Source: Solilutibacter pythonis (lineage in GTDB: Bacteria; Pseudomonadota; Gammaproteobacteria; Xanthomonadales; Xanthomonadaceae). Taken from it: 64,000 nucleotides of DNA. Location of the stretch: the NCBI RefSeq assembly GCF_003697345.1, contig NZ_RFLY01000001.1, positions 186,001-250,000 on the forward strand. Direction: 5' to 3'. Under the pieces are notes generated by a model. It saw nothing but the letters and a program-made list of their open reading frames with translations, was not told the DNA's origin and did not search any database. Positions 12,085 to 23,147 of this stretch are shown here, piece by piece; position 1 is the stretch's first letter, and the number at the start of each line of letters is the position of its first letter. A program made the position numbers and the translations under genes.

Positions 12085-12160
12085 GCGGGAATAGCTCAGT
12101 TGGTAGAGCGCAACCTTGCCAAGGTTGAGGTCGCGAGTTCGAGCCTCGTTTCCCGCTCCA
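12085..12160 (+). tRNA. glyW: tRNA-Gly (GCC)
   Basis: A 76-nt cloverleaf. The acceptor stem GCGGGAA pairs with TTCCCGC, the discriminator is T and CCA is encoded. The anticodon arm is CAACC-TTGCCAA-GGTTG, giving anticodon GCC, and the T-arm has GAG-TTCGAGC-CTC. It follows pgsA as glyW does in enterobacteria, but the expected next gene, tRNA-Cys, is 10.4 kb away. Confidence 0.97.
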
Positions 12161-12202
12161 ATTTATGATTCGCAGATGTCCGTCGATATCCGCAAGGCGT
12201 TG

Positions 12203-12228
12203 AAAAAAGGAGCTTCGGCTCCTTTTTT
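12203..12228 (+). terminator. Rho-independent terminator after tRNA-Gly
   Basis: AAAAAAGGAGC, TTCG loop, GCTCCTTTTTT: an 11-bp stem with a stable tetraloop whose 3' arm carries the T-run. It can work in both directions and would also stop minus-strand transcription leaving the methanobactin locus. Confidence 0.85.
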
Positions 12229-12230
12229 CA

Positions 12231-12979
12231 TTCCAGCAAAAAGCTACGGGAACTTACCGGCGGCCGGTAAGTTTTGGGTATCCGCTTCTAGTGTGGGACA
12301 ACCCTGCTGGCTGCCCTTGGCTCCCGGTCTCCCGCCCGTGGATTTCCCGGCCTCCATTACCCAGCCTTCCATGCGGAATTAATCCCCTACGGCGAACTGA
12401 AACGCCGTTTCGCAGTTACGCTTGCGATTGGATCATCCAACCGAGCGCATTGGCGAATGGGAAGCTTGGTTCGCAGCTTTGGAGCTGCCTGGCTGACAGC
12501 TTTGCTGTTGGCGACCGGAGCATGTGCGTCGAATGTTTAGAGCACTCAAGGCATTGCCAGCGCATCCAGCCTTCCACATGCGCGAAGCCCGCCCGCGAGC
12601 CTGAAGGCGCAACTGAGCGTGCCGGATGATCACCCCCGCATACAAAAATTCAGACTGCCCTGATAAACCCCGGTATCCGCCACATCCACACTCGGCCCTA
12701 CGCGCCTGAAACCAACGGTAAGGCCGAGTGTCTCGTGCGGATCAGCCCGCGATAGCGGACCTATGCCAGGCCCTACGAAGCTCAGCCGAGCGAAAGGCGG
12801 CCTTGCGCCCTTCATGGAGGGATACAACGGATGCCGACCATGCCCGGCATTCGACCATCAGCCACCCGTGCATCGTGTCGCGGCCATGAGCAACCTCCCG
12901 AGGTTCTACGACCTGGTTGGCAACCAGGCCAAGTCCACCAACCTGAGCACTGGCGCCAACACGGATTCGGCGGCTCGGA
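12231..12979. other. Long intergenic region without a convincing gene
   Basis: About 750 bp between the tRNA-Gly terminator and the convergent unknown gene. Short open frames exist, such as 12630-12827 on the minus strand and 12886-12990 on the plus strand (34 codons, the last of which run into the convergent gene). None has a good ribosome-binding site or a recognisable product. One clear 10-bp inverted repeat is listed separately. It may be a structured or decayed insertion boundary; I cannot name it. Confidence 0.4.
12688..12731. repeat. Inverted repeat with 24-nt loop
   Basis: ACACTCGGCC (12688-12697) is exactly complementary to GGCCGAGTGT (12722-12731). No T-run follows on either strand, so it is not a standard terminator. 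It lies inside the unassigned intergenic stretch at the left end of the island. Confidence 0.5.
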
Positions 12980-14062
12980 TCATTTATTGAAAGTGATTCT
13001 GATGGGCACGTTTTTCAGCGTGAAGTCCGCCGCTCTTTCCGTGTAAGGCGCCTTGTTCCAGCTCCAGTGCTGAATGAAATTGATGGTTACGTCAAAATTC
13101 CCTTCATAGCCATTCTTGGTCGATTTGGGGCCGCCAGCCGGATTAGACGCTACGAAGCTGACTTTTTGCACGGCCCTTTTGATTCTCGCCTTGCCAAAAT
13201 CCCCCCAGCCCTTGCCGTCCAGACCTGTATACATTGCCGCCAGAGTGTCGATCTGATCGCTGTTGAGCGAGTGTTTTACCGGCTCGCCACTGGCTTTGTC
13301 GACGAACATGGGCCGGTCGGTCGTGGGATCGACGTTCCAGATGGGGAATAAAGTCGTGGCGAACGATGGATCGGTGATGTCGAAATATCCATCCAGTGCC
13401 TGCGTCAGTGTGGCGTAGGTCGCGCTTTTTGGCTTGTCGCCTTTGATGGTGACGTGCGCCGGCGTTTTCGTCGCGGCCAGGGTGGATTGATCGACCCGAC
13501 GATAATCGGTTAGCTTGACCTTCGTCAGCCCCTCCAGCACCAGCCGGTCGACATTTTGTTTGCCAATCGTCTTGCCCGCTTGGGCGGTCAGCGTGAAACG
13601 CAGGTGCAGATCGACGATGGGTTGCTGCTTCGAATCAGGAGCCAGATCAGTCAACACTTCCTTCGAACCAGGCTGCATGGAAATCACGACGTTATCCAAG
13701 TTGGCGAGATCGTCCGCTTTCAGCGCGTTTTCGGTGGGCAGGATTTTGTTCAGCGCCGCGACGAATTTCGGTGCGTCCGTCAGATGGCCAGCGACATCGA
13801 TGCCGAGGTTGTGCTGGAGCGCCGCGATGACGGAGATTTTGCGCACCCGCAGACCGGCGCGAGTGGTCGTGTTTTCATTGCCGTCGTTTTCATACGAGGG
13901 TATTGCGTCCTTGAATGCGCTGCCGGTCGCGGCGCTCAGAGCGTGGTCGTTGGTGATACTCGAAATTGACTCGAACATGATGTCTGATGTGGTCATGCCA
14001 TCAGCCGCAACGGCCATTCCGGGCAGTAATAGGGTGATCATTCCTAATTTCTTTAGTTTCAT
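12980..14062 (-). CDS. Exported protein of unknown function downstream of mbnM
   Basis: Not recognised. The 360-residue product has a clear Sec signal peptide (K-rich start, MITLLLPGMAVA, cleavage probably after residue 19) and no further membrane segment, so it is expected in the periplasm or outside. The mature part is rich in Thr, Lys, Asp and Asn, has no Cys pair or haem motif, and ends with a beta-rich tail (VTINFIQHWSWNKAPY...). It has a good ribosome-binding site (AGGA, 8 nt spacing). It lies 374 bp after the MATE gene on the same strand, so it may be its own unit. The DNA is more AT-rich than the surrounding operons, suggesting acquisition with the island. Any role in copper handling is inference. 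Confidence 0.75.
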   Translation of the reverse strand: MKLKKLGMITLLLPGMAVAADGMTTSDIMFESISSITNDHALSAATGSAFKDAIPSYENDGNENTTTRAGLRVRKISVIAALQHNLGIDVAGHLTDAPKFVAALNKILPTENALKADDLANLDNVVISMQPGSKEVLTDLAPDSKQQPIVDLHLRFTLTAQAGKTIGKQNVDRLVLEGLTKVKLTDYRRVDQSTLAATKTPAHVTIKGDKPKSATYATLTQALDGYFDITDPSFATTLFPIWNVDPTTDRPMFVDKASGEPVKHSLNSDQIDTLAAMYTGLDGKGWGDFGKARIKRAVQKVSFVASNPAGGPKSTKNGYEGNFDVTINFIQHWSWNKAPYTERAADFTLKNVPIRITFNK

Positions 14063-14436
14063 TTGAAATTTCCTATCGATTTTCAGGTGAGTGCAACTTG
14101 TATATCACATTGGAGGGTGCTGCGTACCGGTCGGGGCGAATCTTTCCCTTCCGTGACAAAATCTAGCCATTCAAACGGTTGGCCGGTGCCATCGCGCATG
14201 CTGGCGTGTTCATGGATGGGAAGCCGAGGGGGCGGTAGCCCAGCAAGTCCAGGTCCAGCGTTCCCTATACGTCTTCGTCGCCGGTGGTATGAACCGCTGC
14301 GCGCGGTGAGGATGGTGCGGGAGTGCCGTGGGGAGTGGGCCATCGCCCCCTGGATTGGAGACATTTTGTGAATGCCGCGCCCGAGTGCTTCGAGATGAAG
14401 AAAATCCAGCCGTGACTTGCCGGGCCGTCGTTCGCA
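14063..14436. other. Intergenic gap between mbnM and the unknown exported gene
   Basis: 374 bp. No convincing gene: the open frame 14083-14364 on the minus strand lacks a ribosome-binding site and has shadow-like composition. Close to the downstream gene, a minus-strand TGTGATATACA stretch (about 14095-14107) resembles an extended -10 element, so the exported protein may have its own promoter. No matching -35 box is obvious. Confidence 0.35.
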
Positions 14437-15753
14437 TCACGAGTTCTCGGCGATACCCGTGGCGGCATCGCGCATGCGGGCCGATGCCCGGTATCGGAAG
14501 GTCAGCCACGCGAATATCGAAATTTCCGGAAGCCAGAGATAGGCATAGGCCAGTGTCGGCGAATCGAGTTTCAAGCCAATCGCTATCAGTGGCAACCCCA
14601 ATATCCAGCCCATCAGGGAATCGGCCTTGGCCACGTTGTTGAAATCTCCACGGCCTTGCAGCGCGGCGCGCAAGATATTGGTCGCCAGCCGTACCGGCAA
14701 AGACAGCGCCAGAGACCAAACGAAGATGGACCACCACGGTCCTTGTTGTGCGTAAACGCTGAGACCGAGCCAATGCTGCCCCAGCGCGAGCAGCACGGCC
14801 ACCATGGCTATCATCGGAATGCCATGGCTCAGCAATTCACGCATGAGCGCTTGAACCTCGCAGTCGGGCCGACCCGAAAACCGGATGGCGAGGAAGCGCG
14901 AGAGCGCCGCGAGCGGGGAGAAAACGAGCATGGCCAGGGCCACGCCGGCACCGAATGCGTCCAGCCGTTCCGTCGTGACCATTGATATGCCGGGCCATGC
15001 GAACAGGCCGACCGTGATAAGCCCCAATAGTTGCATCGATAGGATGCGTTGCCCCTCCCAGGCGCCCTTGATGGCTTGTTCGCAGCCCCAGCGCTTTGGT
15101 GGCAATAGCGGGAATCCGCCGGTTTGCTTGCGCAAGCACATCAGAACCCAGCCACTCGACGCGGCTTGAACCAGCAGCGAAGCCATGAAGCACCCGACGA
15201 AACCGGCTTCGATGATGTTCAGGAACACGATGTTCATGGCGACTTTGGCCGCCACTTCGCAAACTTTCCAGCGCAAGATGGTGGTCCCTCGATGCGTGGC
15301 GTGCAGCGCAAACGCCGCGCAGGCATTGAGTATCCGAAACGGTGCGCCGGCGACGAACCAGGGAATCGCCGATTCCAGCATCGCCACCAGGGCTTCATCG
15401 CCGCCGGCCACCCACGGCGCCAACGCGGGATAGAGGAGCCACCCCGTCAGCAGTAGCACGATGCCGATCAGCCCCGCCAATCCCATCGCCCAGCGGATGA
15501 CGAGACTGGCACTGCCGTGTCGCGCCGCTTGGGCGATGGCGACCGATACCACCGCGCCGAAGGCCATTGCCGCGACCCAATCGATCAATACCAGCCGCGT
15601 GAACAATACATACGCGCCCGACATGCCGGGCGCGTGCCGGGCGAGCATGGCCACGTCCACCTGTAGCGACAACTGTGCTACGACGAATGCCAGCAACAGG
15701 GCCGCGAAGCCCCGCCAGAATGCGCTGCCGCGAATGGTGGGGGAGGGCGTCAT
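14437..15753 (-). CDS. mbnM: MATE-family exporter, MbnM role
   Basis: Predicted inner-membrane efflux protein, probably exporting the finished methanobactin. The 438-residue product is almost wholly hydrophobic with about twelve helices in two similar halves (FAALLLAFVVAQLSLQVDVAML at the start of the first; MQLLGLITVGLFAWPGISMV at the start of the second), as in MATE/MOP transporters. The ATG at 15753 overlaps the mbnC stop (ATGA), so it is coupled to the biosynthetic genes. A second in-frame ATG at 15771 would lie inside mbnC. MATE exporters next to mbnABC are typical of described methanobactin operons. Specificity is inferred from that context. Confidence 0.82.
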   Translation of the reverse strand: MTPSPTIRGSAFWRGFAALLLAFVVAQLSLQVDVAMLARHAPGMSGAYVLFTRLVLIDWVAAMAFGAVVSVAIAQAARHGSASLVIRWAMGLAGLIGIVLLLTGWLLYPALAPWVAGGDEALVAMLESAIPWFVAGAPFRILNACAAFALHATHRGTTILRWKVCEVAAKVAMNIVFLNIIEAGFVGCFMASLLVQAASSGWVLMCLRKQTGGFPLLPPKRWGCEQAIKGAWEGQRILSMQLLGLITVGLFAWPGISMVTTERLDAFGAGVALAMLVFSPLAALSRFLAIRFSGRPDCEVQALMRELLSHGIPMIAMVAVLLALGQHWLGLSVYAQQGPWWSIFVWSLALSLPVRLATNILRAALQGRGDFNNVAKADSLMGWILGLPLIAIGLKLDSPTLAYAYLWLPEISIFAWLTFRYRASARMRDAATGIAENS

Positions 15754-16328
15754 CGCGGCAGGGCTTGCCATCCGGGAAATCCGTCGTCCAGCGACCGGGC
15801 CGGGAGCAGGAAGTGGCCGAACGGGGTGCCAGGTGCCGGGAGCGCCTCTTCCAGTTCGATGCGCTCGATTTCCCGGCCGCCATCGAGCGATGCGGTTTTC
15901 CAGCCGCAGACGAGATCGGGAACGTCGGCGCCCCCCAGAGCGATTCCCTGGAATTCCGAGCGGTCGCCGGTGGCCCAGCGCGCGGCCGATGCGCCCATCA
16001 AGGCATAGCGCAACCCAGGCGTGACCTGATCGCGAAAGGGGGATTGCCGCAGCCAGATATCCACCCACAGGTAGTAAGTCCAGTTCAGGGATAGTTTCTG
16101 TTCGTTCGCCCACGCCATGAAGGGGCGGAAGATGGAAAGCCCATCCGGGCCGGAGAGTTCCAGCAAGCCGGGGCAAATGTCGAACAGGGTGTGCCAGTAC
16201 ACCCGCAGGCTGGTGTCGATACGTACGAAGGCACGTGATTCGCGCGGGTAGTTTCCTTGACGCGCCGGTACGGTCAGGGCGTCCAGCAGATCCGTATCGA
16301 TCATACGAAGGTCAAGCGCATGATGCAT
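15750..16328 (-). CDS. mbnC: Methanobactin biosynthesis partner protein MbnC
   Basis: Forms the heterodimer with MbnB that modifies MbnA cysteines; it helps bind the leader peptide. The 192-residue product matches MbnC strongly by eye: PARQGNYPRESRAFVRIDTS, the long segment YWHTLFDICPGLLELSGPDG, FRPFMAW, and the C-terminal FPGWQALPR close to the FPGW-x-x-LPR ending I recall from characterised MbnC. I chose ATG 16328, overlapping mbnB by 17 bp; ATG 16304, eight bases after the mbnB stop, is an alternative, and neither has a strong ribosome-binding site. It is followed by the MATE gene with a 4-bp overlap. Confidence 0.9.
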   Translation of the reverse strand: MHHALDLRMIDTDLLDALTVPARQGNYPRESRAFVRIDTSLRVYWHTLFDICPGLLELSGPDGLSIFRPFMAWANEQKLSLNWTYYLWVDIWLRQSPFRDQVTPGLRYALMGASAARWATGDRSEFQGIALGGADVPDLVCGWKTASLDGGREIERIELEEALPAPGTPFGHFLLPARSLDDGFPGWQALPR

Positions 16329-17136
16329 CGCGGGTCCCCATGGATGGTTGGGCGAACAAGGCGCGCAGGCGATCGAGGTCTTCTTCGATCTCCGCTTCCT
16401 CGAAGTTGTCGTCGCGCTCATAGGTGATGGTGGCCCCGGGCGTGTCGAAGCGCGCGCGGTAGCGCTCCAGGAATGCAAGCGTCGTATCGGACAGCGCCCG
16501 GTCGTGGGTATCCACGATCAAATGCGGGGCCAGGATGGACAGGTTGTAGCCGGCGACGTGGAAGTGGCTGTTGGTTTCGATGACCCCCTCCCACGCCTCC
16601 AGCGCAACGCCACAGTTGAGGTGGGCGCATACCGCGTTGGATACGTCGAACAGGACGCCGGCGCCGGTATCGCGCTGCAAGCGCTCGTGGAATCGAGGCG
16701 CGTCGTGCCCGCCATCCATGATCGATGGATAGTTTTCCAGGTGCAGGCGGCATCCCAGTTTCTGTTGCCACCAGTCCACTCGGCGTTTGACCTGCTCGTA
16801 GTCGCGGACGTAGTCGATCTCGGCCAGGTGGTAAAGCTGGCGCCCCTCATGGGTGAAGCGCGCGATGTGATCGGAAACATAGAGCGGCTTGAGTCTGTCG
16901 ATCAAATCGCGCAGCCGCCGCGCCATGCTTTCCAGAGCGGCCTCGTCGTTCTCGATGAACTTGGAGAACATGATGTGAAACCCCACGGGGGCGTCGAAGC
17001 CATTTTCCAGTTCGTCCGGCGGCACCGATAGGAAGTTGTCGATCAACATCTCGACATAATCGATCCGGCCGGACGCCAGCAGGCGGCGCACCAAGGGCGC
17101 GGTATCTCCGAGGGTATAGTTGAATCCAATGCGCAC
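16312..17136 (-). CDS. mbnB: Methanobactin biosynthesis MNIO enzyme MbnB (DUF692)
   Basis: Iron-dependent oxygenase that, with MbnC, converts peptide cysteines into oxazolone plus thioamide pairs. The 274-residue TIM-barrel protein shows a full set of candidate metal ligands in family order: H54 (GFHIMF), H90 (VSDHIARF), E134 (HLENYPS), D164 and N167 (FDVSNAVCAHLN), H193 (FHVAGYN), D209 and H211 (VDTHD), E240 (TYERD). I place the start at the GTG at 17136: it has AGGAG eight bases upstream and gives RIGFNYTL, the usual N-terminus. The longer ATG at 17172 would start inside a hairpin. It lies 63 bp after mbnA and overlaps mbnC. Confidence 0.93.
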   Translation of the reverse strand: MRIGFNYTLGDTAPLVRRLLASGRIDYVEMLIDNFLSVPPDELENGFDAPVGFHIMFSKFIENDEAALESMARRLRDLIDRLKPLYVSDHIARFTHEGRQLYHLAEIDYVRDYEQVKRRVDWWQQKLGCRLHLENYPSIMDGGHDAPRFHERLQRDTGAGVLFDVSNAVCAHLNCGVALEAWEGVIETNSHFHVAGYNLSILAPHLIVDTHDRALSDTTLAFLERYRARFDTPGATITYERDDNFEEAEIEEDLDRLRALFAQPSMGTRDASCA

Positions 17137-17157
17137 GGCGTGCTCTCCTGTGGAAGA

Positions 17158-17190
17158 GCCCGCCACCGGCAATGTCTCGCGGTGGCGGGC
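17158..17190 (-). promoter_or_regulatory. Hairpin between mbnA and mbnB
   Basis: A perfect 10-bp stem, GCCCGCCACC (17158-17167) with GGTGGCGGGC (17181-17190), around a 13-nt loop. On the minus strand it begins 10 bases after the mbnA stop and has no T-run. It is more likely an attenuator or RNA-stabilising stem that lets the peptide be made in excess over the enzymes than a full terminator. Confidence 0.7.
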
Positions 17191-17199
17191 CGGACTTGC

Positions 17200-17295
17200 T
17201 TAGTTCACGCCGACCGGGGCGCAGCACGAGGCGCAGCAAGCGCCCGCGCGTCCGGCGACGACCATCGTGATTTTCCTGGCTACTTTGATCTTCAT
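17200..17295 (-). CDS. mbnA: Methanobactin precursor peptide MbnA
   Basis: 31-residue ribosomal precursor of a copper-binding methanobactin. The leader reads MKIKVARKITMVVAGRA, matching the known pattern of alternating Lys/Val/Ile residues followed by (V/I)-x-GRA. The core is GACCASCCAPVGVN. It aligns with the short Methylocystis-type cores (C-A-S-T-C-A), with the second Cys of each CC pair at the positions that become oxazolone/thioamide. AAGGAG lies 7 bases upstream of the ATG. The gene stands 199 bp after mbnH and 63 bp before mbnB. It is below the size most gene finders report. No tailoring genes are nearby, so the product may carry only the MbnBC modifications. Confidence 0.9.
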   Translation of the reverse strand: MKIKVARKITMVVAGRAGACCASCCAPVGVN

Positions 17296-17494
17296 GAGTT
17301 TCTCCTTGGTGAATCGTGAATTTAAGAAGCGGATGCCTTCGTCATGGCGTCATCGATCTGGATGTTGGGAGCTTTCCCGCAACATCGCCGCAGGCATCGC
17401 GCAAGATTGTTGATTGGGTGAAACATTATTTGTTTATCTCGATAGGCGGCCTCGCTTCTTTGGTTGAAAATCCATGCCGATCGGGGACTCGCGT
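17296..17494 (-). promoter_or_regulatory. Leader/promoter region of mbnA
   Basis: 199 AT-richer bases between the mbnH stop and mbnA. A separate mbnA promoter is plausible because precursor genes are usually expressed more strongly than their enzymes. I see AT-rich stretches (ATAAACAAATAATG on the minus strand near 17425-17440) but no confident -35/-10 pair and no clear Fur or CopY-type operator. A 34-codon frame with three Cys at 17322-17426 lacks a ribosome-binding site. Confidence 0.35.
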
Positions 17495-18634
17495 TTATTT
17501 TTCCGACTTCCACGGGTCCGAGAACCTCGGGTCTTTCAGGAAGGCTTGGTCAGTCAGTGATTTTAGGAAATTCAGCAGGTCCCGCTTCTCTTGTTCGGTA
17601 AGGTCGATTTTCGAGATGAGTCCGCTTTTGTAGGGGTTCATTCGGCCATCGCCCTGGTTCGGGCCGGACGTGGTGATGCGTCCCCCCTGGGAGTACTGCT
17701 CGATGACGTCCTCCAGCGTGGCAACGCTGCCGTCGTGCATGTAAGGGGCGGTGACTTCGATATTCCTCAGGCTGGGCGCCCGGAAGGCGCCCATGTCCTC
17801 AGGCTTCCCAGTGACCTCGAATACGCCCCGATTCGGGTACGGATAGCCGCCCTTGCCGTCGATGTTGTACAGCCCATTGTTGTGGAACAGCGTTTCGATG
17901 GAGCGGCTTTTCTTGTGTACCACCTGGTCGTTGAAGTTGAAACTGCCATGGCAGTGGTGACATTCGGCTTTTTCGCCGAAGAACAGCGCCATGCCACGCG
18001 TTTCGGAATCCGACAGCGTCCCTTTGCCTTGCAGGTAGTGGTCGTAACGGCTGTCGACCGAGACCATGGAGCGCTGGAAGGCCGCGATGGCCTTGATTAC
18101 CGTGCCCATATTCAATGGATCGGCTTCGCCCGGGAAGGATTGCTTGAACAACGGCGGGTAGATCGGTTCGGCCCGCAGGCGATCGAGCACTTCCGGCCGG
18201 TTTGCGTCGTTGACCCCCATTTCAATGGGGTCGTCGCCGAACAGTGGAGTTTCCATTTGCCGTTCCAGCGAAACCAGCGCCGGACTTGCCCAGTTGTAGG
18301 TCGCATGCCAGGCGCTGTTGGCCAGGCTTGGCGCATTGCGATGCGTGCGCTCTCCGGTCGAGCCCAGGGATACTGGCCGTCCATCGGTGAAGGCCCGGTT
18401 CTGGTGGTGGCACGAGGCGCATGACAGCGTGCCGTTTCCGGATAGGCGCATGTCGTAGAACAGGCGCCTGCCGAGTTCCACTTTCGCAACCGACATGGGG
18501 TTGCCCTCCGGCACCCGGGGTTCGGGTATGTGCGAGGGCAGGTCCCACGACCAGGCAGTCATGGCGGCCGTGGCCAGGGCCGCCACGGGCAACGCCGCCA
18601 AACCGATCACGGCGAGCAAGGTTCGGCGCGTCAT
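17495..18634 (-). CDS. mbnH: Di-haem peroxidase-like enzyme MbnH
   Basis: MauG/bacterial cytochrome c peroxidase-type periplasmic enzyme. Its characterised methanotroph relative oxidises a Trp of MbnP to kynurenine. The 379-residue protein has an N-terminal signal/anchor (RRTLLAVIGLAALPVAAL), two c-type haem sites (CASCH at 72-76 and CHHCH at 225-229) and the PYMHDGS motif with Tyr298, a candidate axial or catalytic residue as in MauG. The ATG at 18634 overlaps the mbnP stop (ATGA); the longer frame reaching 18757 lies inside mbnP. The pairing with MbnP right before mbnA supports MbnH rather than a general peroxidase. Confidence 0.88.
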   Translation of the reverse strand: MTRRTLLAVIGLAALPVAALATAAMTAWSWDLPSHIPEPRVPEGNPMSVAKVELGRRLFYDMRLSGNGTLSCASCHHQNRAFTDGRPVSLGSTGERTHRNAPSLANSAWHATYNWASPALVSLERQMETPLFGDDPIEMGVNDANRPEVLDRLRAEPIYPPLFKQSFPGEADPLNMGTVIKAIAAFQRSMVSVDSRYDHYLQGKGTLSDSETRGMALFFGEKAECHHCHGSFNFNDQVVHKKSRSIETLFHNNGLYNIDGKGGYPYPNRGVFEVTGKPEDMGAFRAPSLRNIEVTAPYMHDGSVATLEDVIEQYSQGGRITTSGPNQGDGRMNPYKSGLISKIDLTEQEKRDLLNFLKSLTDQAFLKDPRFSDPWKSEK

Positions 18635-19521
18635 TGCTTTGGACGCACGCGAAATATGGGTGAACGCCCGGGTTTGACCGGGGCGTCCTCGTCGAGCGTA
18701 AGCCCTAGCTGCCTGAATATGGTGTCGCATTCCGGGTCGTCCGGCGCACTCATGCAACCGACCGCGCCTTGGCTGTCTTCCGAAATACGGCTGGTCTGGA
18801 ACAACGCCGCCAGGTCCAATTCGATCCGTTGGTTGGCTGGATCGAATGGATCCATCACCAGTGGAATGCGATTCGAGCGCAGGCAGGAGATCGTCGCGTC
18901 CGTGACCGGGTTGCCGGTACAGCCGGTGGAACCCAGATGCACGTACCAGGATGCGGAGCGGGAGCCATCCGCCTTGACGACGCCGCCTTCCGGGTCGATC
19001 TCCACCTTGATGAACTTGCGGCCCGCCTGCCAGCTCCAGCCCATGGCGAGAATGTCCAGCGGCGCGCCTTCCAATTCCGTGCTGGTGTGGTTCAGCGGCG
19101 AAGGCACGCCGACGGTAAAGGCCAGGCCGGTGTAGCGACCTGCCGGCACCGTCCCGCTGACCAGCATGTTGGTGTCAGGCGTGCCGCCAACGCATGCGCC
19201 AGTGGCATCCTCGAAATCGAGCAGCGCCACCTGTTCGTTCTGCCAATCGTTGGCGGTCAGGGTGATGGGCGTCCGTATGCCGTCGGCATCGATCAACGCC
19301 ACGTCCTGTACGTAGAAGCGCGCATCTCTCAATGTCGCGCGCCTGGCATCGCTGCCGAGCGCGCCCAGCGGTTTTCCGCATCGCGCGGCTTGACCATTGG
19401 CGACCATCTCGAAGGTGATCGCCACAGGTTGTTGGGTCTCCGCAAGAGGTGTGGCGGCGCTTGCGTATCCGCAAATACCGATTATCGGGGCCAATGCCGC
19501 CGCCATGAGGGTCATGTGCAT
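18631..19521 (-). CDS. mbnP: MbnP-family periplasmic copper-binding protein
   Basis: Partner of the di-haem enzyme MbnH; known members bind copper and carry a Trp-derived kynurenine. The 296-residue product has a signal peptide (about 1-22). The mature part holds six cysteines (48, 110, 201, 213, 256, 265) able to form disulfides, and the family segment MGWSWQAGRKFIKVE (160-174), whose Trp162/Trp164 are candidates for oxidation. HLGSTGC near 195-201 is another conserved stretch of the four-Cys MbnP family. It lies 12 bp after the TonB receptor and overlaps mbnH, forming one transcription unit. Exact metal ligands cannot be assigned by eye. Confidence 0.87.
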   Translation of the reverse strand: MHMTLMAAALAPIIGICGYASAATPLAETQQPVAITFEMVANGQAARCGKPLGALGSDARRATLRDARFYVQDVALIDADGIRTPITLTANDWQNEQVALLDFEDATGACVGGTPDTNMLVSGTVPAGRYTGLAFTVGVPSPLNHTSTELEGAPLDILAMGWSWQAGRKFIKVEIDPEGGVVKADGSRSASWYVHLGSTGCTGNPVTDATISCLRSNRIPLVMDPFDPANQRIELDLAALFQTSRISEDSQGAVGCMSAPDDPECDTIFRQLGLTLDEDAPVKPGRSPIFRVRPKQ

Positions 19522-19533
19522 GTCGTCCTCCGG

Positions 19534-21720
19534 TCAGAAGCGGGTGCCGAGCGTGACGTTCACGCTGCGCCCCTCTTCGTAGCTGAAGGTGTTGGCCATG
19601 GATTGCTGGTAGGTGGCGTATTCCTTGTCGAACAGGTTGGTGACGCCGACATCGACGCGGTATCGACGGTGCTCGTAGCCCACCCCGACATCGTGGGTGG
19701 CGTAACCGCTGCGCCGGCGCAGTAGCGTCGAATCGTAATCTTGCGCGCGCACGAACTGGCCGAGGTAGTGCAGGGACCAGTGGCCGTCCAGCCGGTATCG
19801 GGTGCCAAGGGCCAGCTTGTCGGGAGGCGCATACAGGTGGGCGCCAGTCTGGGCGTTCTTCGAGCGCAGCCGCGAATAACCCAGGCCCAGGGCCAGGTCG
19901 TTCCGGACGTAGGCCACCTCCAGCTCGCCCCCGCGTCTTTGGCCCTTGGCGACGTTGAGCCGCTGGAATATGAGCCCGGTGCCGACGAACGGCGCTTCGC
20001 GCGTGTAGCGACCGACCGTCTTCTGCTCGATCATGTCCTCCACGTCCTCGGTGAAATAACTCGCTTTGATCCGTAACTGGTCGCCCGCACCGAGTACCTC
20101 ATCGAAGGAGAGCATGGCGCCCACCTCCTTGGTCTTACTGGCTTCTGGCCTGAGTGCGGGGTTGGGGCGGAAATTGAACAGCGCCCGGTTGGTGTTGAGG
20201 CTGCCGAACATTTCCGTCACGCTCGGCGCTCGAAAGGCTTCGCCGTAGCTGCCGTAGACCGCCAGAAACTCCCATGGCTGGTATTTCAGCGTGAACTTAG
20301 GCGAGACGCGGTCGTGGCTGGACGCGTTCTGTCCCGGTGAGGTCAGCCGGTAATCGTCGCGCCGAAGCGCGCCGATCAAGGTCCAGCGATCCAGAATGGA
20401 AACCTCATCCTGGACGAACAGACCCACGGCGCGCATGCGGCCATTGGGAAGCACCGTGTTGGCCTGTCCGGCCGACGTGTTTTCGTTGGTGTCCCTGTAA
20501 AAGTCCAGGCCATAAGTCAAGCGGTGGGATGCCCATGAGCCCGTCTCGAAACGGCTGCTGTTCTGCAAGCCTGCCCCGACCGTTTGGGTCATCATGGAGG
20601 TCGACGGCTGCCGTGGAACGGAGCGGCTCTCGCCATTGAGCTTGAATCGGGTCTGATAGACCGTCAGCTTGCCGTCGAGCAGAGGGAGATCGGCATCCCG
20701 AAAGGTCCAACTGCCGGTGTACTGTTCCTGGTTGCGCTTGAGTTTCTGGGAGAAGGGGAAAAGCAGGTTTCCGCCCGGGTTGGTGGGCCCCACCAGCTTG
20801 TCCGCGAAACGCTGGTAGCTCATCTCGAAGCGATTGCGTTCACTCGGGGAGAATCCGGCCTTGAACAATCCGCTCTTGAGGTTTCCATCGTTCGGATATC
20901 TCGCATGCTCGCCTCCCGCGCCAGTACGGATATCGCCGAAGTCGCGGTAGGTGGCGCTGGCCAGGAAATCGAACCGTCCCGCGCGCATGGCGGCTGAGAG
21001 ATTCGTGGAGGACGCCTCGTTGGCGCTGCGATAACCGGCTTTCACACGGCCGCCGAAGGTTTGGTCAGGCGACAGGAAGTCCTTGGCGCCGATGGTCTCG
21101 AACGCCATGACGCCGCCCAGGCCGCCACTGCCATAGGCGGCGGACATGGGGCCACGCACCACGTCCACCTGCTTGATGAAATCCGGGTCGATGAGCAGGA
21201 GTGTATTCACGCCGCCATCGTTGTTACGGCGGGCGCCATCGACGGAAATGATGATGCGGGGGCCTTGTAGACCCCGGATCGCCGGGCTTTGAGCGGCCGG
21301 ACGCGGGCCACCGCCATAGTTGACGTTTGGTAGTGTGCGAAGCACCGTTGAAACGGTGCTGGCCTGGGCATCGTCCAATTGCCCCCGATTCACGGTGGAC
21401 ACGGAAGCCGGCACCCCGAAACTCGAGTTGGGACTGCGAGTGGCCGTGACGGTGATCGTGTCCAGAACCGTCACCTTGTCCGCATGGTTCGATGAGTCAA
21501 CGGCCGCATCGGCGGCTTGTTGCGCATGCGCCAAGTTTGCGGTCAGCGAGCAGGAGGCCGCCAGCAACAACGCACACGGTGCAGAGGAACGTTTGGAACG
21601 AGATAAGGTGGAGGCGCTGGCGCGAGGCCGTGAACCGAACTGCGCATTGATGGCGGCGGCAAGCGCGCAGCGGCGCGGAAGCACAGGGACGGCACCCTGC
21701 GCGGAGGAAACTCCGAACAT
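19534..21720 (-). CDS. mbnT: TonB-dependent outer-membrane receptor, MbnT role
   Basis: Likely outer-membrane importer of copper-methanobactin. The 728-residue product has an unusually long N-terminus (about 45 residues) before a hydrophobic signal core (PCALLLAASCSLTANLAHA). A plug domain follows (DTITVTATR..., about 88-200, with GPRIIISVDGARR and VDVVRGPMSAAYGSGGLGG), then a beta-barrel ending in a C-terminal Phe (LGTRF). Overall it looks like the haem/haemoglobin-type receptor class. The far start is supported by GGAG seven bases upstream. It sits 12 bp before mbnP and 73 bp after a DUF2946-like gene. Substrate is inferred from the locus; another copper or haem ligand is possible. Confidence 0.85.
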   Translation of the reverse strand: MFGVSSAQGAVPVLPRRCALAAAINAQFGSRPRASASTLSRSKRSSAPCALLLAASCSLTANLAHAQQAADAAVDSSNHADKVTVLDTITVTATRSPNSSFGVPASVSTVNRGQLDDAQASTVSTVLRTLPNVNYGGGPRPAAQSPAIRGLQGPRIIISVDGARRNNDGGVNTLLLIDPDFIKQVDVVRGPMSAAYGSGGLGGVMAFETIGAKDFLSPDQTFGGRVKAGYRSANEASSTNLSAAMRAGRFDFLASATYRDFGDIRTGAGGEHARYPNDGNLKSGLFKAGFSPSERNRFEMSYQRFADKLVGPTNPGGNLLFPFSQKLKRNQEQYTGSWTFRDADLPLLDGKLTVYQTRFKLNGESRSVPRQPSTSMMTQTVGAGLQNSSRFETGSWASHRLTYGLDFYRDTNENTSAGQANTVLPNGRMRAVGLFVQDEVSILDRWTLIGALRRDDYRLTSPGQNASSHDRVSPKFTLKYQPWEFLAVYGSYGEAFRAPSVTEMFGSLNTNRALFNFRPNPALRPEASKTKEVGAMLSFDEVLGAGDQLRIKASYFTEDVEDMIEQKTVGRYTREAPFVGTGLIFQRLNVAKGQRRGGELEVAYVRNDLALGLGYSRLRSKNAQTGAHLYAPPDKLALGTRYRLDGHWSLHYLGQFVRAQDYDSTLLRRRSGYATHDVGVGYEHRRYRVDVGVTNLFDKEYATYQQSMANTFSYEEGRSVNVTLGTRF

Positions 21721-21793
21721 GAGAAAACTCCAACGATGATCGTGAACGCGCGCGCTCGGGCAGTCATCCCGTGACGACGCGATAGGCGACGGA

Positions 21794-22201
21794 TCAAACG
21801 TTGGAGGGCGGTGCGCGTGCCTGGTGTGTGGTTCTGAAACCTTCGGCTAGGAGGCGCTCGACAGGCGGCGCCTGGGGGGCGTGAGTGTTGAGGTCGGTCG
21901 CGGGGATGAAGGCAGGCGAGGGCGGAATGGCGATGCCGTGTACAAGCGGACACAGCGCGCACATGCCGCCGGAGGACATCGTTCCGGCGTCTTGCTGATC
22001 TTGATCGATGTCGATGCCGAAACCCGACAGGGGGACGGTTTTCATGCCCGTCCCCGTGCAGATGACGATGCTTTCCTTATCCGCCGAGATGGACGCCAGG
22101 GGCATGCTCGCTACGGCGAAGGTCTGCAACAGGAACGCCAGCGCAACGGCAATCGTGCCGAAGCGGTGCATCCTGTGACGAAGCAGCCTCCGAAATCGCA
22201 T
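21794..22201 (-). CDS. DUF2946-like small exported protein at the head of the mbn locus
   Basis: First gene of the minus-strand cluster. From the ATG at 22201 the product is 135 residues: a basic start (MRFRRLLRHRMHRFG), a hydrophobic signal or anchor (about 15-35), VICTGTGMKTVPL, then CALCPLVHG near residue 90. The C-x-x-C-P motif after the signal is the hallmark of DUF2946 proteins, often found beside TonB-dependent receptors. The Cys, Met and His residues could bind metal, but this is unproven. A longer frame reaches 22339 but adds an unlikely N-terminus; the ribosome-binding site at 22201 is weak (AAGAAA). Confidence 0.7.
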   Translation of the reverse strand: MRFRRLLRHRMHRFGTIAVALAFLLQTFAVASMPLASISADKESIVICTGTGMKTVPLSGFGIDIDQDQQDAGTMSSGGMCALCPLVHGIAIPPSPAFIPATDLNTHAPQAPPVERLLAEGFRTTHQARAPPSNV

Positions 22202-22416
22202 GTCGTTTCTTTTCTTGCCTGGATGCGTTGAGATGCAAAATACCCCGACGGCGATGCTACTGCCGTACTTCCTGGCAGTCCAGTGACGTAGAAGACAGTT
22301 CCAGACATCGCGGACGTGTAGACGTTGCACCCCCGCCATTGGTCTCGCATGCCGCCAATCATCGATGGCGCGCGCGATGTCCGTGTTCCTCGATGAAGGG
22401 TGTGGGATGAACTTTG

Positions 22417-22445
22417 TTGTCGAGGACGGGAAATGAAGCTATAGT
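22417..22445 (+). promoter_or_regulatory. Plus-strand promoter divergent from the mbn locus
   Basis: TTGTCG (22417-22422) and TATAGT (22440-22445) with an exact 17-bp spacer. It points away from the DUF2946-mbnT genes, toward a terminator 90 bp on. No coding frame follows it. Confidence 0.55.
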
Positions 22446-22451
22446 GGCGTG

Positions 22452-22555
22452 CTTCACTGCTGGGCGTGGGTGACTGGGAAACAAGACGCTGAGGATCCGT
22501 TGGCTGGCGCGTTTTCCGCTCCGCCCGCCAGAGCCCCGGTTCACCGGGATTTTTC
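22452..22555 (+). ncRNA. Candidate small RNA (promoter-terminator unit)
   Basis: About 100 nt lie between a good sigma-70 promoter and an intrinsic terminator, with no ribosome-binding site or open frame. It could be an independent small RNA, or the decayed remains of a tRNA-Gly transcription unit: 22511-22523 matches the tRNA-Gly 3' end at 12 of 13 positions. Start and function are inferred only. Confidence 0.3.
22536..22555 (+). terminator. Intrinsic terminator upstream of tRNA-Cys
   Basis: CCCGG, TTCA loop, CCGGG, A, then five T. The stem is short but fully GC. It would isolate tRNA-Cys from transcripts entering from the island. Confidence 0.55.
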
Positions 22556-22598: not shown

Positions 22599-22672
22599 GG
22601 CCGGATGGCAGAGTGGTTATGCAGCGGATTGCAAATCCGCGTACGCCGGTTCGATTCCGACTCCGGCCTCCA
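22599..22672 (+). tRNA. cysT: tRNA-Cys (GCA)
   Basis: A 74-nt cloverleaf. The acceptor stem GGCCGGA pairs with TCCGGCC, the discriminator is T as expected for cysteine tRNAs, and CCA is encoded. The anticodon arm is GCGGA-TTGCAAA-TCCGC (anticodon GCA). Its last 19 paired and T-loop bases recur at 23121, marking an integration site. Confidence 0.97.
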
Positions 22673-22676
22673 TCGA
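22650..22676 (+). repeat. Integration-site repeat, copy in tRNA-Cys (attL-like)
   Basis: TTCGATTCCGACTCCGGCC, then T, then CCATCGA. The same 27 bases with a single change (T to G, at the discriminator position) occur at 23121-23147, 471 bp downstream, as expected when an element integrates in a tRNA 3' end. Confidence 0.8.
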
Positions 22677-22685
22677 AAACAGCAG

Positions 22686-22719
22686 AAAACCTCGGGAAAA
22701 CCGGGGTTTTTTGTTTTTT
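22686..22719 (+). terminator. Terminator after tRNA-Cys
   Basis: AAAACCTCGG, GAAA loop, CCGGGGTTTT, followed by further T-rich sequence. The stem holds one G-T pair. It lies inside the integrated relic, so it came with the element. Confidence 0.75.
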
Positions 22720-22850
22720 CTACCCGTTGCCTTGTGCGTCGCCGGATGTCGTTTTTGCGGAGCGCCCCGCAATTTTCGGGGTTGGCGACGCTTTTCGACC
22801 GACGCGATTGCGCACATGGCGCTGCGTTGTCGCTTCGCGGATGTGGCCGG

Positions 22851-23114
22851 GCAGGTGCGTGGGTCACGCAGTTGGCCGGCTTCGGTAGTGTCTGTCGCGG
22901 CCTTGGCGCGCAGGTCGTGGAATTGCACGCCCTCGACGCCTGCCGCCTTGCAGGTCTCCATCAACCACCGGCTCACCGCATTGGTTCCCACTGGGTTTCC
23001 GTGCAGGTCGACGATCAGGCGAGTGTTGATGCGCTTGCGCCCTGACTTGCGTTCGCGGATGCGTGCCAGCAGTTTGGCGAGGCCGTCGATCACGTTGATA
23101 CGTACCTTCTCGCG
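22851..23114 (-). pseudogene. Tyrosine recombinase (phage integrase) fragment
   Basis: On the minus strand, about 88 codons read REKVRINVIDGLAKLL...GNPVGTNAVSRWLMETCKAAG and then FHDLRAKAATD. This is the box II (H-x-x-R) part of a phage-type tyrosine recombinase. The N-terminal arm-binding region and the segment with the second His and the catalytic Tyr are missing, so it is inactive. It lies between two copies of the tRNA-Cys 3' end and explains them: a nearly deleted prophage or integrative element. Confidence 0.8.
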
Positions 23115-23120
23115 GGTTTT

Positions 23121-23147
23121 TTCGATTCCGACTCCGGCCGCCATCGA
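23121..23147 (+). repeat. Integration-site repeat, distal copy (attR-like)
   Basis: Second copy of the tRNA-Cys 3' end (TTCGATTCCGACTCCGGCC then GCCATCGA), followed at once by its own hairpin. It probably represents the original tRNA-Cys end before insertion. Together with 22650-22676 it bounds 471 bp of relic DNA. Confidence 0.8.

Follow-up and report, generated by a model that had tools for sequence, protein, structure and literature searches.

How a set of methanobactin genes came to lie in a chromosome of the Lysobacteraceae, and what it does there, is the question raised by a locus in the 64,000-nucleotide stretch of DNA analyzed here (contig NZ_RFLY01000001.1; hereafter the window). The host UvrC is 86% identical to that of Lysobacter (Solilutibacter) oculi, which points to a host of this family and of the same genus and fits the 'Xanthomonadales-type' chromosome named in a preliminary description of the locus. 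The locus very probably represents a Group III methanobactin operon, complete and intact, that is carried on a 10.36-kb relic of an integrative and conjugative element (ICE) of the ICEclc/PFGI-1 type, with predicted functions in synthesis, export and re-import of a Cu(I)-binding peptide. The genes and their order, the intact reading frames, the iron ligands of MbnB, the insertion site, the empty site and an element end common to other genomes were all observed directly. The preliminary description had recognized the operon, which is retained here, and had overlooked the tRNA-Gly island and the link to an ICE.

The operon lies on the minus strand in the order DUF2946, TonB receptor, mbnP, mbnH, mbnA, mbnB, mbnC, mbnM, and translation of all eight genes revealed no internal stop. 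Each gene listed in the preliminary description from the DUF2946-like gene to the MATE exporter was present in the order and on the strand proposed, and its call of a complete methanobactin locus was borne out by MbnA, MbnB, MbnC, MbnM, MbnH and MbnP, which score over curated cut-offs with no frame broken (Table 1). The scores of the Mbn proteins against these cut-offs far exceed chance. By its predicted gene products the locus is therefore a complete and intact methanobactin operon of the Group III type. The closest solved structure for both MbnB and MbnC was 7fc0, which we take to be that of Rugamonas rubra MbnABC. The MbnA precursor, MKIKVARKITMVVAGRAGACCASCCAPVGVN, has a basic leader followed by a CCASCC core of the C(G/A/S)(S/T) pattern, with cysteines at positions 20, 21, 24 and 25, and no signal peptide was apparent by eye. 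These two cysteine doublets are typical of most Group III precursors (PMC3621798, cited here, like the other papers, from an excerpt). When 11 related mbn loci were compared by tblastn, mbnA was upstream of mbnB in every one, the GACCASCCAPVGVN ending was identical in five, and CCxSCC was present in all except that of Gallionella (10/11). Modification of Cys21 or Cys25 has been reported for R. rubra MbnA, in work that recorded absorbance near 335 nm (PMC8888699), and by position Cys21 and Cys25 of the window precursor are the predicted modification sites. Directly downstream of mbnA, as in a methanobactin operon, is mbnB with its tri-iron ligands, followed by mbnC. In agreement with the preliminary description, which had noted that mbnB keeps its metal residues and that mbnC matches its family, all eight iron ligands named for Vibrio MbnB (PMC8888699) are conserved, as is His211 in the Vibrio numbering. 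These ligands are shared with the Group III R. rubra MbnABC (PMC8888699).

Mining in 2013 described Group III operons in non-methanotrophs (Kenney and Rosenzweig, PMC3621798), and the excerpt of that work covers operons of Pseudomonas, Azospirillum, Cupriavidus, Methylobacterium and Tistrella that have the same two cysteine doublets, mbnB and mbnC, the same downstream mbnM, and upstream mbnPH and a TonB receptor on one strand, likewise with no mbnI or mbnR seen. These Group I hallmarks were also not found among the scanned open reading frames (ORFs) of the island. The window operon differs in its Lysobacteraceae host, in having DUF2946 as its first gene and in lying on a delimited tRNA-Gly island. 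The complete one-strand order from DUF2946 to mbnM is present in 7 of the 11 related loci, namely those of Comamonas composti (L035), Achromobacter veterisilvae (L041), a Cellvibrionaceae metagenome-assembled genome (MAG; L032) and two Pseudomonas (L034 and L036), together with L033 and L039; by this recurrent position DUF2946 belongs to this operon subtype. Elsewhere the arrangement varies: the Gallionella locus has no DUF2946 match, in the Chromatiales and Plasticicumulans loci the receptor comes after mbnM, with no match to mbnP, mbnH or DUF2946, and in that of Cupriavidus mbnP, mbnH and the receptor are encoded on the opposite strand, with mbnM and DUF2946 unmatched. The Pseudomonas loci L034 (3024-3509) and L036 (3055-3465) additionally contain a second mbnC-like match, at 43-45%, approximately 7 kb upstream of mbnB.

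Bufferin and oxazolin (Hvf) loci likewise produce copper peptides modified by multinuclear iron enzymes (MNIO), but with a Sec-signal precursor, other partner proteins and an MNIO of another clade (PMC12452194). Window MbnB scored 80 bits with the BufB model NF050167 (cut-off 310) against 461.5 bits with the MbnB model. An IQ-TREE phylogeny was calculated from 75 rows, comprising a selection of the listed MbnBs, the 11 related loci and, as outgroup, 8 of the 18 available MNIO loci of the family, among which L002 has a long branch. Window MbnB fell on the MbnB side of the MNIO split (100/100), within an 11-row clade (99/95) including MbnBs of Comamonas, Rhodanobacter, Thauera and Achromobacter, and was sister (97/69) to those of Comamonas, Rhodanobacter, Cellvibrionaceae and Achromobacter. 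This is the Pseudomonas/Azospirillum type of Group III, apart from Methylosinus and Methylocystis (groups as in PMC3621798). Profile scores and tree thus agree with the preliminary assignment to methanobactin rather than a bufferin-type MNIO, and a bufferin or other MNIO locus was rejected.

Among 395 genomes of the family, the genome containing the window was the sole one with an MbnB over cut-off, and at E <= 1e-60 it was again the sole carrier among 398 genomes of the order and 369 of the class; since these searches draw evenly from larger groups, further carriers exist. The 120 listed of 161 matches include NCBI-named MbnBs of Rhodanobacter lindaniclasticus (85%) and a Thauera MAG (84%). 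Vertical inheritance within the Lysobacteraceae was rejected, MbnB being confined to this genome in the family and order samples. As Group III operons outside the methanotrophs have been described since 2013 (PMC3621798) and NCBI already names an MbnB from Rhodanobacter, of the same order, the preliminary ranking of the operon as the main find was too strong.

The operon is situated between tRNA-Gly (12085-12160) and tRNA-Cys (22599-22672), on an island of 10.36 kb at the 3' end of tRNA-Gly(GCC). The last 18 bp of this tRNA gene form one attachment (att) site, and a degenerate copy is present at the far end; within the 64 kb this copy is the only other plus-strand site matching at the 14/18 level, with one further site on the minus strand. 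The unit that moved is therefore slightly wider than the span 12980..22201 given in the preliminary description, whose genes stand, and extends between att sites at 12143-12160 and 22506-22523. In 12 of 16 other genomes of the same genus tRNA-Gly and tRNA-Cys lie 44-77 bp apart; in the remaining four retrieved pieces one or both tRNAs were not found, two of these pieces being cut by a contig end. When the host flanks were joined without 12161-22523, they aligned through the junction with same-genus locus L046 (positions 3-410 of 410, 79% identity), and the junction was also visibly aligned in same-genus loci L044 and L047. No match to the island was detected in the retrieved pieces of the 16 genomes. 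Insertion at the 3' end of tRNA-Gly with att repeats, the second degenerate, is that expected of an ICEclc/PFGI-1-type element: ICEbph-sal KF716 and ICEclc use the same tRNA-Gly target (GCC for ICEclc), with the integrase following an att repeat located at the 3' end of the tRNA (PMC8704644).

Immediately beyond tRNA-Gly the window retains what appears to be the integrase-side end of such an element. Window positions 12085 to 12265, 12252 and 12237 align with A. veterisilvae, the Cellvibrionaceae MAG and C. composti, respectively, at 84.5-85.0% identity, in the same orientation and on the tRNA-Gly side, so that the matching element end past the tRNA amounts to 77-105 bp. The segment 12161-12265 was matched in 16 of the 395 family genomes, including the host itself, and in none of the 16 other same-genus genomes; in all eight loci inspected from those 16 genomes, again including the host, it lay directly 3' of tRNA-Gly, and an integrase was matched in four of the eight, in one case as a piece of 33 residues.

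In C. composti, A. veterisilvae and the Cellvibrionaceae MAG a tyrosine integrase gene follows the element end. The A. veterisilvae integrase has Arm-DNA-binding and integrase domains over Pfam cut-offs, the sole NCBIfam model matched scoring 187.6 against 434, and the C. composti integrase is 81% identical to it over its length. On the far side of the Comamonas operon are a relaxase of the MobH/PFGI-1 ICE class (367.9 against 200 and 295.6 against 161.4) and a TraG_N protein; in the MAG the relaxase is in three pieces with a partial TraG_N, and the retrieved Achromobacter flank contains neither. Between mbnM and the integrase all three copies carry CopC-CopD and PCu(A)C genes, which in A. veterisilvae exceed Pfam cut-offs with CopC and CopD below the NCBIfam cut-offs, and the integrase-side cargo of the ICE copies also includes LysR-like genes. 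Whereas the known cargo of ICEclc-type elements is aromatic degradation (PMC8704644), that of these mbn elements is methanobactin with CopC-CopD and PCu(A)C. In Comamonas the 12-base att core is repeated exactly at a distance of 79,625 bp, on the same strand and beside a second tRNA-Gly and a tRNA-Cys, and in the MAG the repeat is 78,785 bp away with an exact 18-bp copy; as the three genomes contain 5, 12 and 6 occurrences of the core, the copies were chosen by strand, distance and flanks. The Achromobacter contig ends short of such a distance. Six of nine Comamonas ICE proteins score over cut-off (the PFGI-1-class ParB (TIGR03764), topoisomerase III, TraD, TraC and two conjugative-element proteins, TIGR03747 and TIGR03752); of the others, ParA and a protein truncated at the locus end are below cut-off, and the third has no match. 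With integrase, PFGI-1-class relaxase, ParB, TraD, TraC and att repeats, the C. composti element matches the ICEclc/PFGI-1 type in its predicted protein families and layout.

Two further observations concern these elements. Over 14.9 kb the mbn elements of the MAG and A. veterisilvae share 97.9% identity, yet the hosts named for them belong to different families, which points to recent transfer or else to a MAG contig placed in the wrong bin. By eye, the C. composti ICE (L077-L080) encodes further cargo, such as AraC-like and MerR-like regulators with hydrolase-like ORFs (approximately 16-19 kb) and, at 20.4-22.5 kb, a TonB-receptor-like ORF; AraC-like, hydrolase-like and MerR-like ORFs nearly identical to these are found immediately upstream of the Achromobacter operon (L041 295-3206), hinting at a rearranged ICE there.

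Table 1. Features of the methanobactin island and its borders in window coordinates, with the basis of each assignment (profile scores are given against the model cut-off)
Feature	Position	Strand	Basis
tRNA-Gly(GCC), island insertion target	12085..12160	+	3' 18 bp (12143-12160) = attL
Putative relic of integrase-side end, ICEclc-type element	12161..12265	+	matches L041, L032, L035 at same place
Weak transposase-like (rve_3) trace	12672..12734	+	PF13683 E 0.01, 16 bits vs 26.5; weak
Putative periplasmic/secreted protein, 360 aa, outside mbn operon	12980..14062	-	real gene by homologues
mbnM, MATE exporter, 438 aa	14437..15753	-	NF045578 585.4 vs 285
mbnC, partner protein, 192 aa	15750..16328	-	TIGR04160 297.8 vs 185; 7fc0 MbnC E 4e-56
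mbnB, multinuclear iron enzyme, 274 aa, GTG start at 17136	16312..17136	-	TIGR04159 461.5 vs 325; 7fc0 MbnB E 5.4e-103
Stem-loop between mbnA and mbnB	17157..17191	-	GC-rich; RNA fold; 10-pair helix
mbnA, 31-aa precursor ending GACCASCCAPVGVN	17200..17295	-	PF25751 E 2e-15; TIGR04071 54.1 bits vs cut-off 24
mbnH, di-haem MauG-like enzyme, 379 aa	17495..18634	-	TIGR04039 499.7 vs 362.85; 6e1c E 9e-162 (closest solved)
mbnP, copper-binding-family partner of MbnH, 296 aa	18631..19521	-	PF20243; TIGR04052 291.3 vs 140; 7l6g E 9.3e-84 (closest solved)
TonB-dependent receptor, mbnT position, 728 aa	19534..21720	-	PF07715, PF00593; TIGR01785 459.2 vs 316.85
DUF2946 protein, first operon gene, 135 aa	21794..22201	-	PF11162 E 8.8e-10
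Promoter-like block upstream of operon (CTGGACTGYCA ... GTARMAT)	22254..22283	-	alignment with L032, L035, L041
attR, degenerate copy of tRNA-Gly 3' end	22506..22523	+	14/18 bases; position fits L046 empty site

Several observations weigh against descent of the island from such an ICE. Searches of the window for integrase, relaxase, TraG_N, CopC-CopD and PCu(A)C were negative and no MobH relaxase was found in the genome, for which reason the window copy is probably best described as a relic and not an ICE; since the ICE genes are gone, its descent rests on the operon, approximately 100 bp of element end and the site. The far att copy is degenerate (14/18), and by eye the ICE-side bases adjoining it do not resemble those in the elements of Comamonas and the MAG. 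Eight of the 11 mbn loci have no integrase or tRNA-Gly(GCC) in the retrieved flanks, three having both. The operon DNA is only approximately 73% identical to the ICE copies, and transfer would therefore be old or from an unsampled lineage. The missing ICE genes and the eight loci lacking integrase or tRNA-Gly, together with the weak transposase-like trace beside the operon, would also fit delivery by plasmid recombination, transformation or insertion sequence activity, with an ICE end adjoining by chance and the operon never having been ICE cargo here. Methanotroph mbnB has been recorded on plasmids (five records), and of the 15 other family genomes with the ICE end none has an MbnB over cut-off. 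Such delivery is nevertheless unlikely, as operon and element end share their relative order and orientation with three other element copies, window MbnB is sister to the clade holding those copies, and the second att copy is located where the empty site predicts it. In the favored scenario of ICE descent, the element would have arrived by conjugation, the integrase, relaxase, type IV secretion, CopC-CopD and PCu(A)C genes would then have been lost, and the operon would have remained under purifying selection.

Candidate expression signals were found at two places. A promoter-like block is conserved upstream of the operon; a scan for the sigma-70 consensus did not pick up this block and gave one site, on the other strand, with none on the coding strand. 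Between mbnA and mbnB a stem-loop was predicted and compared in the window and the seven loci of common gene order (8 of 12 loci, 7 distinct rows), where 90% of cells pair and four pairs show changes on both sides. Sliding the helix partners by 1-3 columns reduced pairing to at most 55.9%, and none of 500 shuffles equaled the pairing or the covariation score, whilst 21 reached four two-sided pairs and 42 reached the number of pair types; as the helix was read from the very sequences tested, these controls are partial. Because a T-run is absent, the stem-loop may be a processing or partial-termination element.

The 360-aa gene, which the preliminary description had counted as a periplasmic member of the locus, does not belong to it, as it has no tblastn match in any of the 11 related mbn loci. 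Its product has no Pfam or NCBIfam match and 26 further homologues, 24 at 57-88% identity and two at 37-39% (one from Mycoplasmoides); of the 14 assigned to a named organism, 11 are from Salmonella, annotated mostly as hypothetical proteins, and one each from E. coli, Klebsiella and Mycoplasmoides. Its G+C content is 54.9% against 62.2% for the operon. Outside the island, the 3' end of tRNA-Cys is repeated at 23120-23143 (22/24 bases; region 22649-23143) and overlapped by an integrase-like relic (PF00589, E 1.4e-5, 25.4 bits against 27.1); together these mark another element relic, distinct from the island, within the Gly-Cys-Leu tRNA array.

With regard to function, MbnH converts a tryptophan of MbnP to kynurenine. 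In the proposed pathway MbnBC would convert Cys21 and Cys25 of MbnA to oxazolone-thioamide groups and some protease would cleave the leader, after which MbnM would export the modified peptide and the TonB receptor would re-import its copper complex, with periplasmic copper handled by MbnP, for which MbnH is the presumed maturation enzyme, and perhaps also by DUF2946. The receptor consists of plug and barrel only, having no N-terminal signaling domain at E <= 1 in Pfam, unlike Group I MbnT. The host encodes a NirK-type copper nitrite reductase (378.4 against 296.3; L063 2809-4329), whose C-terminal cytochrome c-like part scores 43.6 bits on ccoP, below cut-off; its neighbors by eye are SCO-like, HemN-like and CRP/FNR-like ORFs. 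NosZ was rejected as a copper client, none scoring over cut-off in the genome and one weak match lying inside the NirK gene. The non-methanotroph role suggested in the preliminary description agrees with the lack of any AMO/PmoA family match in the whole genome but is not proven by it, as the control genomes of that search were equally without a match; a methanotroph host is disfavored, weakly, on the same result. The system would be one of copper acquisition, likely serving NirK, the likely client, and other copper enzymes.

A Cys-modified copper buffer serving tolerance, in a bufferin-like role, would be another use of such a peptide, bufferins, which are other MNIO products, being known to aid growth under copper stress (PMC12452194); tolerance would likewise agree with DUF2946 and with the CopC-CopD genes that neighbor the operon in the ICE copies. 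This seems improbable, slightly more so than delivery without an ICE, given the lack of an evident signal peptide on MbnA, the dedicated exporter and TonB receptor, and the distance of MbnB from BufB in both profile score and tree. Equally improbable is a silent relic with genes intact and unexpressed. No regulator gene was seen among the island ORFs in Pfam and NCBIfam scans, no counterpart of the LysR genes present in the ICE copies was seen in the window, and the coding strand has no consensus sigma-70 promoter, as would fit silence. Against this, the ratio of nonsynonymous to synonymous divergence (dN/dS) was 0.07-0.22 in all 14 comparisons of seven genes (all but mbnA) with C. composti and A. 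veterisilvae; dS is 0.9-1.9, so the values are rough, and they cover both lineages and are not conclusive, yet no frame is broken over this divergence. The promoter-like block and the mbnA-mbnB hairpin are also retained.

The operon itself is of a known kind, and what seems new is its carriage by an ICE and the domesticated descendant in the window. The excerpt of PMC3621798 reports integrases, insertion sites and conjugation-related proteins near mbn operons and names no element, and titles and abstract beginnings of the open-licence literature gave no ICE carrying methanobactin. Methanobactin production is likely to be a transmissible trait, with a family of approximately 79-kb ICEclc-type ICEs moving the genes to make, export and take up the chalkophore, plus CopC-CopD and PCu(A)C, as a single cargo for copper acquisition across beta- and gammaproteobacteria, and with recipients such as the present host domesticating it through loss of the transfer genes and retention of the chalkophore, in this case to feed enzymes such as NirK. 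Carriage by an ICE would explain why methanobactin genes are scattered among unrelated bacteria, a question since the 2013 mining. As vehicle, target site, cargo and domesticated descendant are all readable from sequence, transfer and copper benefit become testable. A predicted methanobactin maker with a copper nitrite reductase and no detected methane-oxidation gene would also allow the copper-scavenging role of these peptides to be studied independently of methane oxidation.

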